Below are positions 1 to 22,933 of a stretch of 48,684 nucleotides of DNA, one piece after another. The DNA lies in the NCBI GenBank assembly GCA_903916735.1, contig CAIWXX010000084.1:1-48684 (forward strand), in the 5' to 3' direction. The position numbers and the translations under genes were made by a program. How positions within the stretch are numbered: the stretch's first letter is position 1; the number at the start of each line of letters is the position of its first letter. The notes beneath the pieces are model-generated. The model was not told the DNA's origin, made no database searches, and saw only the letters and a program-made list of their open reading frames with translations. The DNA is from an uncultured Acidobacteriota bacterium (GTDB taxonomy: Bacteria > Acidobacteriota > CAIWXX01).

Positions 1-1013
1 GTGGCCAACCCACGCGTACGGCTGCGTGAAATGGCCCTCTCCATGCGCATGAAAGCCCCGGTGTATCCACCATGCCGCTCAAACATGTCGGCAGCCGCAC
101 GCAGAGTCGCGACCGGGTTCACGAGCCCTCGCCCGGCAATGTCGTCGGCCGAGCCGTGCACAGTCTGATATTCGACCAGCCCTTCGACTTCCGGCGCGAG
201 GTAGACGTTGCGACTGTGACGATTCTCCTGCTGCCCCATCCCGTAGCGCGCCAACAGGTCTACATGCATGATATCCAGCCACTCATTGCCGCCGATGATG
301 AGCAGATTTCCTTGGAAAGTTCCTCGCAGCAGATGGCGGTTCATTGTGTCGGGCTGAAACAATTTCAGAGTGACATGGCGCGAATCGGAATACTCCTCGA
401 TCCACCGTGCAAAACGGTTGTCGAGCAGGTGGAACTTGTAGGCGAGCAGAATGTGATCGATCCTATGCTGACCGCCCCAGTGCGTGGCTGCAGCGGCACG
501 TGCGTAGTCGAGAAGCTTCTCGGTCCAGTCACGGCGAAACTCGCAGGTACGCCGAATTATGTCCCCCGCACCGGTGTCATTGCTCCCGGAGTAGAACCCC
601 TGCGCCTCGTCGCGAACGAGAAACATTTCTCCACGCGGTATCGGAATCACCTCTAGCTTCACACCGCACAGCCGTTCCCTGACCTGGTACAGAGTCTCGG
701 CGTTGATGGCCGTACGGAAGACCGTCCGGCAGCCTTCGCCGTAGACATCCCGCAAAAACTCCATGTATTGGAAACAGTCGTCATCTTTGACCGACACCAC
801 GTGGGCCGTCGGCAGGCTCGGGTCAATCGACGCACTAAATGTCCGAAAGCGCCGTGGGCATGTGATTACCTTGACATCGACCCCATAGATTGCAGCCAGC
901 ACGCCGACGGCGTGCTGGAAGACCGATGCCAGTTCCGGCCCTGTACCTTCGCCTATGGCGAGTCCGATCGTGAAGGGGCTCGGGTGGTTGTTCGCTCTAT
1001 TAATGGCTGACAA
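1..1013 (-). CDS. isocitrate/isopropylmalate dehydrogenase-like protein (partial, C-terminus off the left edge)
   Basis: Reading the minus strand gives one open frame that leaves the window at base 1, so the protein is about 337 residues and incomplete. Family signs are an N-terminal IGLAIGEGTGPEL (the IALIPGDGIGPE element), a Lys in LLAYKFHLLDNRFARW, paired acidic residues in EWLDIMHVD for divalent metal, and YQTVHGSADDIAGRGLVNP, the NAD-binding VHGSAPDIAGKGIANP block. The family oxidatively decarboxylates beta-hydroxy acids with NAD(P). The usual ENTEG element is changed to RDEAQGFYSG, so the substrate probably differs from isocitrate and 3-isopropylmalate. A TTG at 1011-1013 with GGGGAG about 11 bases upstream was taken as start. 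A GTG at 1053-1055 would add a hydrophobic lead. It lies downstream of and codirectional with the ABC exporter, and may supply a keto acid to the neighbouring adenylation protein; that role is inferred. Confidence 0.8.
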   Translation of the reverse strand, partial: MSAINRANNHPSPFTIGLAIGEGTGPELASVFQHAVGVLAAIYGVDVKVITCPRRFRTFSASIDPSLPTAHVVSVKDDDCFQYMEFLRDVYGEGCRTVFRTAINAETLYQVRERLCGVKLEVIPIPRGEMFLVRDEAQGFYSGSNDTGAGDIIRRTCEFRRDWTEKLLDYARAAAATHWGGQHRIDHILLAYKFHLLDNRFARWIEEYSDSRHVTLKLFQPDTMNRHLLRGTFQGNLLIIGGNEWLDIMHVDLLARYGMGQQENRHSRNVYLAPEVEGLVEYQTVHGSADDIAGRGLVNPVATLRAAADMFERHGGYTGAFMRMERAISRSRTRGLA

Positions 1014-1055
1014 AAATAAATCTACTCCCCAAGGTGCGACAAGGATCAATGCCAC

Positions 1056-1349: not shown

Positions 1350-3257
1350 CTAGCTGAGTGCCCTCCCAGGGGCGGAGACGGCCTCTTCGGATTGCTGTGT
1401 CAGGAACAGGCGGCGGTAAAGCCCATCACGGTTCATCAATTCCTCATGCGTTCCATCCTCGGCCAATCGCCCGCGATCGAGCACGTATATCCAATCGGCT
1501 CGGGTCACCATCGACAGGCGATGCGCAATGACCAGGAGGGTCCTGCCATGACAGTACTCCTCGATTCCGCTCATGATCGCCTCCTCGGTCGGGCAGTCCA
1601 CATCGTTGGTGGCTTCGTCAAGGACGAGGACCTCCGCATCGAGAAGGAGAGCGCGGGCCAAAGCAATGCGGCGGCGCTGGCCGCCGGAGAGCCGAGTCCC
1701 CCGATCTTGTAGAAGAGTGGAATAGCCATCGGGCATCGCGACTATGAAATCGTGAGCCTGTGCCAGCCGGCACGCCTCCACCACCTGGCTGTCAGTCGCA
1801 TCGGGACTGGCGAAACGCAGATTGTCCATCACGCTCGCATGAAACAAGAAGACATCCTGTGCTACGACAGCCACGCGCCTTCGCCAGCTCGTAATCTCCA
1901 GTTCGCGCAGGTCGACGCCGTCCACACCAATCAACCCCTCCGTGGGATCAGAAAGGCGCGAGAGGAGATTGACAAGAGTCGACTTTCCCGCACCCGATGG
2001 GCCAACCACCGCAACTCGCCCTCCCCGAGGTATCGTGAGGTCGAGACCATCCAGGACGAGCGGTTCGTCATGCGAGTATCGAAACGAAACCCGCCTGATG
2101 CTCACCGATTCGCGCAGCGAAGTGAAAACGATCGTTCCCCCCCTCGGTGCAGTTGGGGTTGTCGTGTGAATCGTCTCCATCAAAGTGTGCAGCATCGGTG
2201 CGACTTGGGCGATCTGGGTGTGAAGGCTAGTGAGGGTTCCGGCGGGTCCCATCAACCGTATTGCGATGACCAGGAAGACCACGAGGAGGGCCGGGACCGT
2301 GTGAGCTGATGCAGGAAGGAACAATGACCCGACGGCCAAAACGGCGGCAAGCAGAGAGACGTTAAGTGCATTGAAAAGCGGGCGTGCCAAGCCGCCGATA
2401 GCCGACGCACGGTACTCGTGCTCTTGGAGGGTTTGGATGTGCCGTGTGAAGCCGGCTTGGCTCCATTCTTCCCGCCCAAAGACGCGCACAAGCTTCATCG
2501 CAGAGAGCAGCTCCTGGATGGCACCCTGTGTCTCACGAAGGTTGTCATGGAGTTTCCTGCTGGCCTTCCGCAGACGCACCGCTACCGCAGGGCGGAGCAG
2601 GAAGCTCACGGGGGCGAGAAGCAACAGACAGAGCAGAGTCAAGCGCCAGGAGAGAGCCAGAGCCAACACGACATAAGTGATCGTCACCGCAATGCTTGCG
2701 GCCGCCTGCCCTGCCTGGAGAGTCAAGGCTCCGACGTTGCGCACAAATGAGTCGAGCAACGCAACGATGCTCCCACGGCGTTCGCGTAGAAAGGCATCGA
2801 GCGGCATTTCGCAGAGACGACGGAAAACCGCTTGCTGCAAGGCGAGCTGGACGTGCCTTCGTAACCGGAGCGACGCGAGAGTCTGTGTGATCTGCAGGCA
2901 GGCCCTCAGGAGGGCAAACGAAACTAAGGCGGTAGCGGCAATGCGGATCCGCACCCCTGCGGGCAGGCTCGATGCATACAAGACGATCTTCGTCAGCCGA
3001 GGCCCTTCTGGCACAGCGGCATCTCGCCCTGCGGCCAGAAGAATGAAGACGTAACCAATCCCGATTGCTTCGGCTGCCACTTGAAGGACCGCCGTGACCA
3101 CAAGGAGACCTAGGAGCCAGCGATGGGGCGAGATCAGCATCAGAAGTTCAACCAAACATTTCGCCGCAGATGACCGAACGTCTTGTGCGGTGGAGGATTG
3201 TCCATCAGGCATCGATCGCGAGGGATGGGTGCCGGTTGGGGCTCTATGTGTATTCAT
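1350..3257 (-). CDS. ABC transporter, fused transmembrane and ATPase domains (exporter type)
   Basis: This is a type I exporter half-transporter of about 635 residues. The first 300 or so residues are membrane-spanning, with about six hydrophobic segments. The C-terminal ATPase domain carries Walker A (VGPSGAGKST), a Q-loop (VAQDVFLF), the signature LSGGQRRRIALARAL, Walker B with DEATNDVD, and the H-loop IAHRLS. Such proteins dimerise and export lipids, peptides or drugs. The ATG at 3257 was chosen. An upstream TTG at 3311 would add 18 residues that do not look like transporter sequence. The gene is divergent from the adenylation/acyltransferase fusion (193 bp between starts) and codirectional with the dehydrogenase-like gene, so export of the fusion protein's product is a reasonable guess. 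The MsbA-like layout would suit an amphipathic product. Confidence 0.93.
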   Translation of the reverse strand: MNTHRAPTGTHPSRSMPDGQSSTAQDVRSSAAKCLVELLMLISPHRWLLGLLVVTAVLQVAAEAIGIGYVFILLAAGRDAAVPEGPRLTKIVLYASSLPAGVRIRIAATALVSFALLRACLQITQTLASLRLRRHVQLALQQAVFRRLCEMPLDAFLRERRGSIVALLDSFVRNVGALTLQAGQAAASIAVTITYVVLALALSWRLTLLCLLLLAPVSFLLRPAVAVRLRKASRKLHDNLRETQGAIQELLSAMKLVRVFGREEWSQAGFTRHIQTLQEHEYRASAIGGLARPLFNALNVSLLAAVLAVGSLFLPASAHTVPALLVVFLVIAIRLMGPAGTLTSLHTQIAQVAPMLHTLMETIHTTTPTAPRGGTIVFTSLRESVSIRRVSFRYSHDEPLVLDGLDLTIPRGGRVAVVGPSGAGKSTLVNLLSRLSDPTEGLIGVDGVDLRELEITSWRRRVAVVAQDVFLFHASVMDNLRFASPDATDSQVVEACRLAQAHDFIVAMPDGYSTLLQDRGTRLSGGQRRRIALARALLLDAEVLVLDEATNDVDCPTEEAIMSGIEEYCHGRTLLVIAHRLSMVTRADWIYVLDRGRLAEDGTHEELMNRDGLYRRLFLTQQSEEAVSAPGRALS

Positions 3258-3531
3258 AGAGTGCTGTCCCAGAGATACCTTTGCAAGCGCTGCGACCACC
3301 CGTAAACGCAAACGAATCGTCGACGTCGGCTTTCACGTTCACGATCACGACCTGCACGCCGGCAATACGAGCTTTGCGCATTTGCGGCGGCCAAGGATTG
3401 TTTGAGACACTACAATAATCAGCACATAACCCCGGCCTACAGCCACAAACATGAACGGCCTTGTCATAGCGAGACTATATTCGGGGGGGCTGCTTGTTGC
3501 AAGAATCCACATGAGACTCTCAGAAGGTGAG

Positions 3532-6500
3532 ATGCAAAATGTGCAAAAATGGCCTAGGATATCGGTCATGGACCGCTCGGCGAAAGGGGCCACCGATTCC
3601 GCGATGGAACTCGCACGGGCGAGCACTCCGACGGATGCCTTCGAAACTCAAGTGGCGCGGAAGCCGCAGGCTGTCGCGCTGGAGGGCGATGGCGTCAGGC
3701 TGACCTATGCAGAACTCGATTCCCGCGCCAATAGACTGGCTGCCACCATCGCGGAGCGGCACGGCACATCCAATACCCCGATGCCGTTGTTGTGCGGTCA
3801 CCGTGCAGAAGCCATCCTCGGAATCCTGGCCGTACTGAAGGCAGGAAAGTGTTTCGTCCCACTGAATCCCGCGAATCCGGCGGAGTATCTCAAGCGAATC
3901 TGGACGCATTCCGGCGCATCGGCCATCCTGGCCGGCTCCCCGGAGCTCCCGCTCGCCCGGCAGATCTGCGGGACAGTGGACGGTTGTATCCCGCTGGATA
4001 TCCGCGCGCCATTCGAGAGCGCCGCGCCGCCGCTTCTCGATCGCGATCCTGAAAGACTGGCGGCGATTGTATACACATCGGGTTCTACCGGAGAGCCCAA
4101 AGGAGTGATGACAACACATCGCAGCATCCTGGTGCGAGTGCAACATCAAGCCCTCGTAGCGAGCTATGTCTCCGGGGATCGCCAGGGATCGATCGTTCAT
4201 TGGGGCCACAGCGCCTCTTTTCCGGATGTCTTTGGGGCTCTGTTGCATGGGATCAGGCTGCTGCCGTTCGACATTGCGGCGGAGGGCATGATGCGACTCA
4301 TCAGCTGGCTGCATGAGGAGAATATCACTCTCCTGCAAATGCCGGCTGCCGCCGTCGCCGGATTCCTAGATGTGGCCGTTGCAGGCGAAATTCGCCTTCC
4401 TCATATCCGTCTGGTCTCTCTGAGCGGCAGCCGATTGTGCCGGGCGGAAGCTCTCGCTTTGTGGAGAGTTTTTCCACGTGCCTGCCTACTGCATGGCTAT
4501 GGATCATCGGAGGCGAACCTGGTGGCGCAGCAGATCATGCACCCCTGCCTCGTCCCCGACGGCGATCCTTTGCCTGTGGGCTACGTCGTGGCGGGAAAGC
4601 AGGTGAAAGTCGTCAACGACCTGGGCCAACCTGTCCCTGATGGAGTGACTGGCGAATTGGTGGTGGTCAGCGACCACCTGTCGCCTGGCTACTGGGGCGA
4701 TCCCTCCGCGACCAAGACCTCGTTTTACGAAGAGGTCAATGGCCGACAACGTTGCTTCCACACTGGGGATTTGGGCTGGTGCAGGCCAGACGGATTGCTT
4801 GTGTTGGCAGGACGCAAGGACTTCGTGGTCAAGATCCGGGGAAATCGAGTGGATTTGGCCGAAGTGGAGATGCGTCTCAGGAGCTCCGGCTGGGCCAGGG
4901 AAGCGACGGTCATTGTTCATCACAGGAGATCGGGCGAAGCCATTCTGATCGCCTATGTCGTCCCCGGGCAGAAGGTGAATCTGGCGCCAAAGGATCTCCG
5001 TGAGGAGCTGGAGAGAACGTTGCCACCGTATATGGTGCCGGGCCGGCTCATTCTCATGGAGGCACTTCCGTTGAGCGCAAGTGGCAAGGTGGACCGTAGC
5101 GTCCTGCCACCTCCCGACAAGGCGCGTCCCACAATACATGTAGCCTTCCGATCGCCCGAGAATGAAATGCAGAAACTGGTCTGCCGGATTTGGGCGGAGC
5201 TGTTGGAAGTGTCGGAAGTAGGTATGGATGATGACTTCTTCGATCTGGGCGGCGATTCCCTCAGTGCAATGAGGATGCTGGCGCAGGTCGAGCAAGAGCT
5301 GGGAGCGAATGTGCCCATGGCTTTCTTCGAAACCCCAACCGTGTCAGCGCTCCTCGCAACTATTCGCTCGGACCCGGGGTCGGGACCTCGACTGCGCCCG
5401 ACGGAGTGCCGGCCTGGAACGAACGCGTTCGTCCGCCCGGAACGGCAGTGGAGGCACATGTTTCGAGGCGCTTGGGATTGGGTGCGTGCTTTCCTCGGGA
5501 AGCCCGGCAGGAACGCCAAGCTCGCGGAGATCGCGGCCCCGACTGCAGCCATGCTGATGCCATACACGGTGGGCTGTCGATGGCTTGCCTGGTGGTGCTC
5601 ACACGCCGACATAGTCGAACGGATCTACTGCCGACAGTACAGTCTCTTCGGCCGGTTTCTATCCGATTTCGGCTGCCACGCATCGGATCCTGAGGCGGCT
5701 TTCCGTAGCAGCCTTCTCGGAAATCTTGCCATGCTTTCTATGTTTCATCGGCTTCACATTCCGGCGGAGTATTCCGGCCGTCTTCTGGATGCACTCAAGG
5801 CCTCTCCGTTGCCATTTCGCCGGTCGGCGGGAAACCTGATCGAGCGGGCCGGAATCGACGAGCTTCGTAAGTGGTTTCACTATTCGGGATTGCAGTTTCT
5901 CGAAGAGATGCTGGCTCTGAAGCGGGGAGTGATCCTGCTCTCTTATCATGGCACGGGACAGTTGCTGGCATCGAGGGCGTTGCGACGCTTTCTCGACAAC
6001 AGGCCGATCCAGTTCCTCAGCCGACACGCCAGCCGTAAGCGTGGGCAACGGAGAATCGAGAAGGGCGGGAGCAGCTCAACGATAGCAGCTATCGAAGTTG
6101 TCAGGGATACCTTGGCCGCGCGGCGAAGTCTGGAAAGCGGAGGGCTCGTGCAGATTGTGCTTGAAAATTCTCCAAGTCCAAGCGCAATCGCCTGTTCCAT
6201 CGGCGGGCGGCTCTATCATCTCGAGTCCGGCTTCGCCGATTTGTCCATTTCGACGGGAGCCGCGATCATTCCGTGGGATGCCCATTACGGCGAGCGCGGT
6301 TGCATCCGCGCGCAGTTTCGGCGCCCCCTGACAAACGACAACACCGACGCCGGCCGCGAAGCCCAGGCTGCTGCCCTGGTGCGACGATACGCCGGGCTCC
6401 TTGAGTCAATCTGGCAGGAGGCCCCCTCCTCTCTGGACTGGCGACTCATCAAGATGCATTATTCCTTGCCCGAAGCCGTCGATGCGCAACCGACGCAGGG

Positions 6501-6534
6501 ACCCTCGTCCGATACTGATGGCGACAACTTGTAG
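3532..6534 (+). CDS. adenylation domain - carrier protein - LpxL-like acyltransferase fusion (NRPS-like)
   Basis: A protein of about 1000 residues. Numbering here counts from the first ATG of the open frame at 3451. The adenylation domain spans about 60-550, with YTSGSTGEPKG (A3, ~208), GYGSSEANL (A5), HTGDLGW and GRKDFVVKIRGNRVDLAEVE (A7/A8, ~437-472) and the catalytic Lys in SASGKVD (A10, ~545). It activates a carboxylic acid as AMP ester. A carrier domain follows with DDDFFDLGGDSLSAMRM; Ser ~603 is the phosphopantetheine site. Residues ~780-1015 resemble the lipid A acyltransferase family (LSYHGTGQLL, GFADLSISTGAAIIPWDA, LDWRLIKMHY). The usual FD at A4 reads HS (GHSASFPDVFGALL), so the substrate may not be a standard alpha-amino acid. 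The start is uncertain: AGAAGGTGAG lies just before the ATG at 3532, and GTG 3541 or ATG 3568 are also possible. No condensation or release domain is visible. Confidence 0.9.
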   Translation: MQNVQKWPRISVMDRSAKGATDSAMELARASTPTDAFETQVARKPQAVALEGDGVRLTYAELDSRANRLAATIAERHGTSNTPMPLLCGHRAEAILGILAVLKAGKCFVPLNPANPAEYLKRIWTHSGASAILAGSPELPLARQICGTVDGCIPLDIRAPFESAAPPLLDRDPERLAAIVYTSGSTGEPKGVMTTHRSILVRVQHQALVASYVSGDRQGSIVHWGHSASFPDVFGALLHGIRLLPFDIAAEGMMRLISWLHEENITLLQMPAAAVAGFLDVAVAGEIRLPHIRLVSLSGSRLCRAEALALWRVFPRACLLHGYGSSEANLVAQQIMHPCLVPDGDPLPVGYVVAGKQVKVVNDLGQPVPDGVTGELVVVSDHLSPGYWGDPSATKTSFYEEVNGRQRCFHTGDLGWCRPDGLLVLAGRKDFVVKIRGNRVDLAEVEMRLRSSGWAREATVIVHHRRSGEAILIAYVVPGQKVNLAPKDLREELERTLPPYMVPGRLILMEALPLSASGKVDRSVLPPPDKARPTIHVAFRSPENEMQKLVCRIWAELLEVSEVGMDDDFFDLGGDSLSAMRMLAQVEQELGANVPMAFFETPTVSALLATIRSDPGSGPRLRPTECRPGTNAFVRPERQWRHMFRGAWDWVRAFLGKPGRNAKLAEIAAPTAAMLMPYTVGCRWLAWWCSHADIVERIYCRQYSLFGRFLSDFGCHASDPEAAFRSSLLGNLAMLSMFHRLHIPAEYSGRLLDALKASPLPFRRSAGNLIERAGIDELRKWFHYSGLQFLEEMLALKRGVILLSYHGTGQLLASRALRRFLDNRPIQFLSRHASRKRGQRRIEKGGSSSTIAAIEVVRDTLAARRSLESGGLVQIVLENSPSPSAIACSIGGRLYHLESGFADLSISTGAAIIPWDAHYGERGCIRAQFRRPLTNDNTDAGREAQAAALVRRYAGLLESIWQEAPSSLDWRLIKMHYSLPEAVDAQPTQGPSSDTDGDNL

Positions 6535-18801: not shown

Positions 18802-21800
18802 TCAATCCGCCGTGAGTATAGGATTTGGGCCCCGCGTGAGTGATTCCACGATTTCGCGGAGCGTCGTTTCAGTTGTCACCCGTCTCGCAGCTTCCTCCAC
18901 TGTCAACCAGTCGGTGGCATAGAGCTCGCGTGAGCCATTGAGGATTCGATCAAGAAGTGCCGGCTGCAGAGCCGGCCGAAGCCGCGAAGGAAGATTCATG
19001 CGAGACATCATCACGCAGAGCAGGATTCGAGGGTTGATACGTTCCACGACGCGGCCCCCCGTCGAATCCAGTTCAAAGAATTCATAGGGCAGGAGTTGTT
19101 CATCGACGAGACCGATTGAGCCTGTGGTTCGGCGCATTGGTATTCCAATCAGTTCGCGCACCGACGCGCGAACACCCACCTGCTTCCACTGGTTCAAAAG
19201 CCGCGCCACGTGAACCGGATCGACGATGGCTGCCCATTTTTCGAGGTGAGCCCGGTCAGCCTCCTTCAAGATGTCAATCCCCAGCATGTAAACTTCTGAA
19301 GGCGTCAGTTCCTCTTCGCCGATTCCCGTCACATGAAGATAGGTCTGCAGAACGGCGAATCGCCGGGGTCCGACAATTTCTTTGAGAGCGGACATGACAA
19401 TCTGCCGTGATGCAGGATCCGTCGCGGCCACGGCGGAAGCGCCGAGTCCATAGCAGTCGGTGACAAAACGAAGGCCCTCATCGGTCATGTGCATCGCGGA
19501 AGGCAGTGAACAGATGGCGCTAAACTGAGCCTGCAACTCGGAATTGGCCCGGCTTGAGGAGGCATTGAGATCAAGAATCTGCCCGAGCCTGTACTCGCGC
19601 ATGGCGAACGGGATGTAATCGACGCTACCCGACACTACACCCTTTTCTGTACATTGCCCGCTGTTCCAGGTGAGATCCACTCGCTCACCGTCAGCCCACG
19701 GATTGGAATTCTCTCCTCGAGGCCCGCCCGACTGATCAAAACAGTGTCCGATCACAATGCCTGACTTGACCGGGTATCGCGGATCGATGCATTCAGCGTA
19801 GATGTAGCCAAGCAGGGTATCAGAGAGAATGCGATCCAATGGCCCCGCTGCATCATCGACCAAATCCGCGATCTTCTCGGCATGTTTGCGGATATCGGCG
19901 TACTGGTTTTTAGAGTCCTTTCCTTTTGATTGTGATTCGATGAGCCGTTTGATCTGAAGGAACTCTTCCTGTATTCCTTGCGATATCCGAATGATCCTCG
20001 TTTTCGTATCAATGAGTTCCTTGCTTATGGGATCGCACTCGTAAGAGGCCCACAGCTGAAGCTCCGGCACGGAAAGTCCCTGGCCTGTTATCCGCTGCTC
20101 ATGAACGAGCCTCCTGAGACTCGACGTATCCGGAACGGGAAGCTCATCGACACCTTCGAGAACCATGCCGACCTCTGTCTCAAAGGACTCCAGCCCTCTG
20201 ACGGCGTCTTTCGGATCAGGCATCTTCATGCTGAGGTCGCGACACTGGTGGAAGGCGCCTTCCAGAGCAAAGTATTCATCAATGCGGCTGACTTTCTGCT
20301 GCGAGAGGAAATTGGCAGCAGCGGCCGCAGCAATCCGGGCCGGATCGTATCGATAATAGTAGATCCCGACTCCAGGCCGTTCCAACGGAACATCGATCGG
20401 CTGATCCGATCCTGTCAACGCAACAACAAGAGTGCCATGCGTGTCCCCGCCCACCGGGCAACCCAGTGCCTCAAAGAAAGATCTGAGGCAGTCACCGGCC
20501 CCGTAGCCAAACCCGGAATCGCCATCAACGGGCAGAGCCATGAGCCTGTCGAAAAGCTGTTGAACGACATCATCCGACGGCCTTCCATGAAGCGCGACCA
20601 GTTGAATCATACGTAACAGCGATTGGAAAATTTTGACCGTGGTGTTCCTGACTTCCCGATTCTGGATTCGGTCAATCCTCTGCATTTGGATCAGAAAGTT
20701 GATGATCCTCTGCTGCAGGCCGCCCAGTGGGATTCCTTGAACAAGGCGATAGGCCGCACCATATCTTTCGAAGTTCCAATACAAAGCTACGAGCGCGACA
20801 TCTTCTGCCGCCTGTGGATCGTTTCCAAAAATGGCCTGGATCGCTTCGAATGCCTGCACCGGGCTGATGCGATTCGCGAGCAGGATATCTCCCCGGTCGC
20901 TATTCAACCTTTCTGCAATGCAGAGGAAACTCTCAAGAGGACTGATGCTCTGCTGCTTGTCCTCGGGGAGTTTCCGACGGATGTCTTCGACATCTCGCTC
21001 ATCGTGAAAAGAACCCCCACTGCTTTCGAGTGCCATGTGCCAGGCTTGGGGGCTACCGAGAATTCGCGGTATGCCGGCATGTTCATCGACGTCGACGAGA
21101 GTGACCAGATCCTGGAAATCCCACCGGCGGGACCAATCCATGCGACCCGCATCATAAGCGCTGGGATAGGGAAGCCGAACAGATTCGAAGAGACGATGAG
21201 CGAAGGATATGGCTTCAGACGGAGGAAGGTTGACACCGAGAAGTATCTGTTGCTTGGCGGTCGGCTGTTTCGACATCACATCGTAGAAGTAGGCCATGGT
21301 TGCGTTTTCGAAGATGTGATGGATGAGCTTTTCAGGGTCGTCGACGGAACAGCCGAGTAGTTCCGACCAGATCCGGATCGAAGTTGTTTCCAAACGCTTG
21401 ATGTTTGCGAAAGCATCACGATTGTTCTGATCGGCGTCCAGATCCGCCAGCGAAGGCATCCCCGGCAGCCGGATGCGCGTTGTCTTATCGGAGGAATCGA
21501 CGATGAGTGAATCGCCGAAGTTGAAAAGCCCCCAGAGAAGACGACGGTTCAAATAAACCTGGCGAAGTCCGATGGAACGGCGCACCAGTTGCCGAGCCGG
21601 CTCATCCATTCGAACCAGCGCCATGTAAAGCAGATCGGCATTCCAATCGGTCAGGAAGAGAGGGAGAATGCGATCTGAGGTTAAGCTGGGGTCGTGCAAA
21701 GCATCCTTGAACCAGGCTGTCTGCTCATCTGGAAGCTTCGCATCGAAATAGGGAATGTGCAGGTCGATTTCCTGACCGGCGCGCAATCGCTGAACCAGAA

Positions 21801-22266
21801 GTTCGATGTCAACGCCTGCTCGTTGGATCATCATCCGGCGAAGGCGACCTTCCTCTCCGCCCGCCGGTTCGATAATCCGCTCGGGGATTTTCTCGTACCC
21901 CATGAATGTCAGCAGAGCAGTGGTTTTTGAATCCTTCTTCACGAGGCTCAGAGGGCCCGGGCCAAATTCACGGTCCAGATCCCGAAGCTTCGTCCTGAGG
22001 CTCTCCAGTGTGCGGACTTGCCTCCTAAGGTCGGAGTGCTCTTCCCATGACTCGTTCGGCTTGAAGGTGAGATTGTGGCTCAGGAACAGATATTGGAGAT
22101 ATCGGGGCATTCCATAATTCCCACCGTTGAAATCGATCACAGGGGTCGCGCCCATAATTGAAGAGGCGGGGGGAGCTTGGGGAACGGCGACGCCGACAGC
22201 CAACGATATTCCAATGGCAAAGGATCCCACCAGAAAAAGGATTGCGCACAGCCGGATGTGCTTCAC
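18802..22266 (-). CDS. large secreted protein of unknown function
   Basis: Not recognised. From a GTG start (ATGGAGGATTGTCTT directly upstream contains GGAGG at ideal spacing) the product is about 1154 codons, beginning with a signal peptide (KHIRLCAILFLVGSFAIGIS). An ATG at 22281 or a longer frame from 22359 is possible. The mature part is mostly predicted helical and acidic, with leucine-rich amphipathic stretches (LRRQVRTLESLRTKLRDLDREF, long charged helices near the middle) and no repeats or catalytic motif that could be identified. A coiled-coil-like stretch lies around IQEEFLQIKRLIESQSKGK. It is the first gene of a tight operon with a VWFA protein 22 bp downstream, suggesting an envelope complex. 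Function is open. Confidence 0.75.
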   Translation of the reverse strand: MKHIRLCAILFLVGSFAIGISLAVGVAVPQAPPASSIMGATPVIDFNGGNYGMPRYLQYLFLSHNLTFKPNESWEEHSDLRRQVRTLESLRTKLRDLDREFGPGPLSLVKKDSKTTALLTFMGYEKIPERIIEPAGGEEGRLRRMMIQRAGVDIELLVQRLRAGQEIDLHIPYFDAKLPDEQTAWFKDALHDPSLTSDRILPLFLTDWNADLLYMALVRMDEPARQLVRRSIGLRQVYLNRRLLWGLFNFGDSLIVDSSDKTTRIRLPGMPSLADLDADQNNRDAFANIKRLETTSIRIWSELLGCSVDDPEKLIHHIFENATMAYFYDVMSKQPTAKQQILLGVNLPPSEAISFAHRLFESVRLPYPSAYDAGRMDWSRRWDFQDLVTLVDVDEHAGIPRILGSPQAWHMALESSGGSFHDERDVEDIRRKLPEDKQQSISPLESFLCIAERLNSDRGDILLANRISPVQAFEAIQAIFGNDPQAAEDVALVALYWNFERYGAAYRLVQGIPLGGLQQRIINFLIQMQRIDRIQNREVRNTTVKIFQSLLRMIQLVALHGRPSDDVVQQLFDRLMALPVDGDSGFGYGAGDCLRSFFEALGCPVGGDTHGTLVVALTGSDQPIDVPLERPGVGIYYYRYDPARIAAAAAANFLSQQKVSRIDEYFALEGAFHQCRDLSMKMPDPKDAVRGLESFETEVGMVLEGVDELPVPDTSSLRRLVHEQRITGQGLSVPELQLWASYECDPISKELIDTKTRIIRISQGIQEEFLQIKRLIESQSKGKDSKNQYADIRKHAEKIADLVDDAAGPLDRILSDTLLGYIYAECIDPRYPVKSGIVIGHCFDQSGGPRGENSNPWADGERVDLTWNSGQCTEKGVVSGSVDYIPFAMREYRLGQILDLNASSSRANSELQAQFSAICSLPSAMHMTDEGLRFVTDCYGLGASAVAATDPASRQIVMSALKEIVGPRRFAVLQTYLHVTGIGEEELTPSEVYMLGIDILKEADRAHLEKWAAIVDPVHVARLLNQWKQVGVRASVRELIGIPMRRTTGSIGLVDEQLLPYEFFELDSTGGRVVERINPRILLCVMMSRMNLPSRLRPALQPALLDRILNGSRELYATDWLTVEEAARRVTTETTLREIVESLTRGPNPILTAD

Positions 22267-22281
22267 AAGACAATCCTCCAT

Positions 22282-22933
22282 TTGATAATTCTCCGTCGCG
22301 CGCGATTGGAAATCAGGATCGCCGGCATCGTCGCACGGGATTCCAGATGACCGCCGCATGCAGAGCTTTTAGGAAAGGAAACCCGGATGGGGGAATCCTT
22401 GAACCCCCGGCATCCATCTTTCGATCCAGAGTGGCCCTGATTTTCATACGGTATTCATAGCTTGCCAGAACTAACCATCGTTTGCTACTGCCGAAAGACA
22501 GTATTTGGAAATATCTTTTGAAAAACTCACTTTTCAGAATTCCCGTTGTCGTATCTCCATCCCGGCGCTTTTATCCGGCTTGAATATCGGAAAGCATCGT
22601 CACCGGAGCTGAAGGCGCAAGCCGGCGTTTTAGTGCTTCCATGACCGTGCCACACAGGGTGAGTCCACCGGCGGGCCTGATTTTTATCTGCGTTCATCCG
22701 TGATTCCTTTCCTCGGGCCTTGGCGTCTTTGCATTGAAAAAACCGGCCGATTCGCCGGTGACGCCTGATGCGTTTTGAGGAACAGGTTGGTAGTCATGCA
22801 CCTGCGCATCACCCGGAGCTTGAAAAGCAATGTAACCATGGCACTCTTCTGTTGACAGGAACACGGATCAGGCTGATCATATTATAGTAAACAGCCGGGG
22901 GGTGGCCGCCGGCCATTATCAGAGGAGTCAGCA
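22282..22933. other. 650-bp divergent intergenic region
   Basis: No gene seen. It separates the minus-strand run from the SPFH gene. It holds a minus-strand terminator-like hairpin at 22737-22759 with no gene to serve. There is also a TTGACA at 22852-22857 followed by the palindrome GATCAGGCTGATC and TATTAT, at a spacing (22 bases) too long for a standard sigma-70 promoter. The rest is unremarkable. Confidence 0.4.
22737..22759 (-). terminator. orphan rho-independent terminator on the minus strand
   Basis: Read on the minus strand: ACCGGC-GAATCG-GCCGGT followed by TTTTTC. It is well formed, but no minus-strand gene lies between it and the SPFH start at 22934. It could end an antisense or small RNA. 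Confidence 0.5.

Follow-up and report, generated by a model that had tools for sequence, protein, structure and literature searches.

The locus and its continuation on a second contig

The window analysed here, a stretch of 48,684 nucleotides, is a whole contig (C84) of the genome assembly of an uncultured Acidobacteriota bacterium (5.37 Mb, 183 contigs). Near its beginning, on the forward strand, lies a gene (3532-6534) whose product carries an adenylation (A) domain, a carrier (PCP) domain and an LPLAT domain of the LpxL/PatA type, and which we call the fusion. Its reading frame is intact and open from 3451 (ORF 3451-6534, 1027 codons), and the ATG at 3532, with AGAAGG just 5' to it, is likely the true start. 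An assembly or frame artefact as the origin of the fusion was rejected, as the gene forms a single ORF with an even GC3 (0.61-0.74, similar to that of the adjoining genes) and shows no sign of a misjoin.

A divergent intergenic region of 220 bases (3312-3531) separates the fusion gene from an ABC exporter gene on the reverse strand (1350-3311), which encodes both transmembrane and ATPase parts. The best scores of the exporter are to HepA (8.6e-116) and MsbA (4.1e-103), and although neither reaches its equivalog cut-off, we assign it on their basis to the MsbA/HepA kind. The third gene (1-1055, reverse strand) is truncated at the end of the contig and encodes the N-terminal part of an Iso_dh-like protein of the tartrate/isopropylmalate dehydrogenase family (8.8e-9). 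An earlier note on this DNA had described the fusion, a divergent ABC exporter and an isopropylmalate-dehydrogenase-like enzyme as linked genes of a compact locus. All three genes are indeed linked in the window and domain profiles bear out the exporter; the dehydrogenase assignment holds as well, but it covers just the N-terminal portion of a protein with two domains, and the locus is not compact, since it runs on to another contig.

Contig C175 of this genome begins with an exact copy of bases 1-141 of the window, the only other occurrence of this sequence in the assembly, and a 141-base overlap is of the sort left by an assembly graph. The two contigs are thus likely joined here, as judged from this one overlap and from the continuity of the domains across it. 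The joined frame encodes a 586-aa protein in which Iso_dh precedes a cysteine hydrolase domain of the isochorismatase type (PF00857, 3.8e-31); bases 1-844 of C175 hold the part missing from the window, including the C-terminus of the dehydrogenase (PF00180 positions 283-341). This is an odd pair of domains, in which most Iso_dh motifs are kept, and a search of 395 further genomes from the phylum at 1e-20 found no relative of the Iso_dh-like part. After this gene comes one for an A-PCP-thioesterase (TE) protein (C175, 855-3494; PF00975, 5.7e-17), whose A-PCP part shares 34% identity with that of the fusion. Just past it, in convergent orientation, a small ORF (C175, 3529-4113, reverse strand) shows a sub-threshold ATP-grasp match (PF14398, 0.00068) and may or may not be a member of the locus. 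Farther along the window, a 1185-aa ORF (18802-22359, reverse strand) without a Pfam match at 1e-5 adjoins a VWA/Ig-domain protein.

The adenylation domain of the fusion probably activates a non-alpha-amino acid

The first 640 residues of the fusion match the Pfam profiles AMP-binding (5.2e-60), AMP-binding_C (5.8e-10) and PP-binding (1.7e-16), and constitute an NRPS adenylation-carrier didomain. The A domain (PF00501 and PF13193; 3640-5088, forward strand) contains the core motifs YTSGSTGEPKG, HTGDLG and SASGKVDR, and the carrier domain (5176-5364, forward strand) has its phosphopantetheine serine in GGDS at 5257. As the earlier note had stated, neither a condensation nor a thioesterase domain was found in the protein by Pfam; a generic NRPS fragment, as an identity for the fusion, was rejected on account of the absence of both.

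Aas is an acyl-ACP synthetase fused to a lysophospholipid acyltransferase, in which acid activation and LPLAT-type transfer take place in one chain; its LPLAT, of the PF01553 type, stands at the N-terminus, its activating part is a fatty-acid ligase, and its carrier is not fused. As the fusion also joins these two activities in one chain, it could in principle recycle fatty acids onto lysolipids in the manner of Aas. We consider this very improbable, because the top NCBIfam matches of its A domain are NRPS adenylation modules and DltA rather than fatty-acid ligases, its carrier is built in, the match of its LPLAT domain is of the PF03279 type, with PF01553 absent from the matches listed up to E 10, and the gene sits in an NRPS-like locus.

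The A4 motif of the fusion reads GHSASFPDVF, which places a serine at the position of GrsA Asp235, and the same serine is seen there in the alignment with LgrA. The whole specificity code, which we take to be S A P Q S S G L V K, was mapped by hand onto the GrsA numbering. As the pocket lacks the aspartate that binds the alpha-amino group, an alpha-amino acid is an improbable substrate; together with the relatives described below, this suggests a keto or hydroxy acid, or some other non-amino acid. The A-PCP-TE protein encoded on C175 also lacks Asp235 and has alanine in its place.

Within the phylum, the A-PCP part is closest to A-PCP-TE proteins (31-37% identity). Asp235 is kept in those of C-A-PCP-TE organization, and is replaced by S, A, G and G in four stand-alone or short A-PCP-TE proteins; such proteins in Acidobacteriota might form a family of keto- or hydroxy-acid synthetases. 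More generally, the nearest A-PCP kin of the fusion are the stand-alone A-T-TE NRPS-like enzymes, which comprise the terphenylquinone and furanone synthetases as well as the acidobacterial A-PCP-TE proteins, several of them without Asp235. Unlike these enzymes, which end in a thioesterase, the fusion has an LPLAT domain at its C-terminus, and the C-terminal thioesterase is found instead in its neighbour on C175. The fungal A-T-TE enzymes activate aromatic alpha-keto acids (PMC9047271).

The C-terminal domain belongs, by profile and predicted fold, to the LpxL/PatA branch

For the C-terminal part (5722-6471, forward strand), the earlier note had proposed an LpxL-like acyltransferase, with an LpxL-family profile search and a structure prediction as possible checks. 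The former gave a divided answer. On one hand, Lip_A_acyltrans (PF03279) matched the whole fusion with E 0.08 (12.6 bits) and the C-terminal part alone with 0.0068 (16.1 bits), both under the curated Pfam cut-off of 22.3 bits. On the other hand, an HMM made from 23 LPLAT proteins, built without the window sequence and run with Z set to 5000, matched the fusion at 2.2e-22 and no other ORF of the window. In tblastn searches of Acidobacteriota, the LPLAT part found free-standing LPLAT proteins, with E down to 1.3e-9 per genome, in alignments that span the core and share the same histidine; a phmmer search of PDB sequences gave no match to it.

The structure prediction bore the proposal out. The core of the domain was modelled by AlphaFold with pLDDT mostly 75-94, in a model that was built on an alignment of the loci of LPLAT relatives and leans on them (single-sequence AlphaFold gave pLDDT 36). 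This model matched PatA (Foldseek 1.6e-11, Z 22.0) and LpxM (6.9e-11, Z 18.6), and PlsC came next with Z 10.9; the Foldseek rows ranked below LpxM were set aside as unrelated ATPases. The domain showed no strong hydrophobic helix. Taking the relatives' profile and the predicted fold together, the C-terminal domain is a divergent member of the LPLAT superfamily, of its LpxL/PatA branch. It is near certain that A, PCP and LPLAT follow one another in one chain, as the earlier note had maintained. The likeness of the C-terminal fold to LpxL/LpxM, the late acyltransferases of lipid A, and to the PIM acyltransferase PatA (Z 18.6-22) has its limits, however, because these proteins are free-standing, use fatty acyl-ACP or acyl-CoA, and have the HX4(E/D) motif.

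The LPLAT active site is altered

In the fusion, the corresponding motif is LSYHGTGQLL, in which the histidine (at 5947) is kept and the acid of HX4(E/D) is absent; its position is taken by leucine or, assuming a one-residue deletion, by glutamine. HX4(E/D) is present in 39 of the 39 relatives in which the motif was readable. Two further changes are seen: FFGR has become IGGR, and the conserved aspartate of ILxDxN is replaced by glutamate. In LpxM, the glutamate of HX4(E/D) is treated as catalytic (title of PDB entry 5knk, E127A). As the fusion has lost the motif acid, normal LpxL chemistry should not be assumed for it, and the altered motif would mean either a changed chemistry or a dead domain.

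If the domain is catalytically dead, its role might be to anchor an otherwise plain A-PCP loading enzyme to the membrane, or to dock it. The loss of the HX4(E/D) acid, of FFGR and of the ILxD aspartate, together with the weak family score, would fit this explanation. We nevertheless find it improbable, as a confident model retains both the histidine and the core fold, and neither the reading frame nor GC3 shows any decay.

In the main rival to the mechanism proposed below, the LPLAT domain would serve to release or condense a small natural product destined for secretion, in the place of a TE or C domain and with no membrane lipid modified. A soluble partner, for which the product of the A-PCP-TE protein is a candidate, would receive the PCP-bound acid on one of its hydroxyl or amine groups, and the ABC exporter would secrete the result. 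The altered motif would be consistent with this, as would the position of the domain, which is exactly where the nearest A-PCP relatives carry their TE, and the presence of both an A-PCP-TE gene and an ABC exporter gene in the same locus. Still, the LPLATs of known function with which we compared the domain work on lipids or lipid-linked sugars, and the portion of the locus that was read contains no condensation domain or further module. We regard release of a soluble product as rather unlikely.

The arrangement was found in no other genome searched

In searches of about 500 distinct Acidobacteriota genomes, the A-PCP-LPLAT order turned up in no protein besides the fusion. Plasmids likewise yielded neither a match to the LPLAT part nor a second fusion; an Agrobacterium plasmid match covering 72% of the query was rejected as such, since only the next NRPS domain is present there. 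Two pattern scans of genome contigs from 84,980 species also revealed none, though such scans reach close relatives only and a distant fusion in another phylum could escape them. The scan with the LPLAT part of the single protein returned 0 relatives, and that with a three-sequence alignment returned 12 free-standing LPLATs, none with A-PCP in its flanks. Literature searches found no NRPS-LPLAT fusion. As the genomes searched here yielded no other instance of the arrangement, no argument from conservation can be made for the fusion.

A candidate mechanism and its relation to known systems

An A enzyme, a carrier and an LPLAT-type transferase are an established trio for the modification of lipid A (PMC3783018, PMC4790380). 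In the Vibrio AlmE/AlmF/AlmG system, an LPLAT-family protein moves glycine from the carrier to lipid A (PMC3783018, PMC4790380, PMC11631085). The fusion resembles AlmE-AlmF-AlmG of Vibrio cholerae in having in series an A enzyme, a carrier and a transferase of the LPLAT family that is a distant relative of LpxL, and it presents this set as one chain. It differs from the three proteins of AlmEFG, which handle glycine, in being a single polypeptide that has lost Asp235; AlmG was compared by its description only.

By analogy with this system, we infer a function for the fusion as a single-chain enzyme that both activates an acyl group and transfers it from its own carrier to a lipid or another hydroxyl acceptor, a reading whose chances we put a little short of even. 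The A domain would adenylate a small non-alpha-amino carboxylic acid, possibly a keto or hydroxy acid produced by the neighbouring dehydrogenase-isochorismatase protein, and load it onto the carrier serine. The LPLAT domain might accept the carrier thioester, as LpxL-type enzymes accept acyl-ACP, and esterify a hydroxyl (or an amine) on a hydrophobic acceptor such as a lipid, and the MsbA/HepA-type exporter would move the product. The neighbouring A-PCP-TE protein would handle the same or a related acid and release it by its own thioesterase.

The first two of these steps, activation and loading, are supported by the motifs, and from there we infer the acid, the acceptor and the transfer. In favour of the mechanism, the A, AMP-binding_C and PCP motifs are intact, the LPLAT histidine is kept, and kinship to LPLATs is indicated by profile, tblastn and model; against it, the HX4(E/D) acid, FFGR and the ILxDxN aspartate are changed and the Pfam score is below the cut-off. 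LpxC is encoded in the host genome (5.2e-101), and therefore lipid A should be available as an acceptor. The idea of the earlier note that an acid is activated on the carrier and joined to a lipid thus survives in part: it is the best reading by analogy with Alm, and the loss of Asp235 fits an acid, but the altered LPLAT motif weakens the transfer to a lipid. A more specific form of it, in which the thioesterase has given way to an LPLAT domain that, with its active site remodelled, delivers the PCP-bound non-amino acid directly to a lipid, we propose tentatively, at well below an even chance.

NRPS lines usually end in hydrolysis, cyclisation, reduction or condensation. If the candidate mechanism is true, a terminal lipid-acyltransferase domain would be a further ending, linking NRPS-type activation to the modification of membrane lipids and tying secondary-metabolite enzymes to the lipids of the cell envelope. 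The fusion would also be a one-protein version of the AlmEFG logic, offering a simpler assay than three proteins do, and it could show whether LPLAT activity is possible once the HX4(E/D) acid has been lost.

The host genome is otherwise rich in NRPS genes, with 12 condensation-domain matches on four contigs (C155, C76, C53 and C46).
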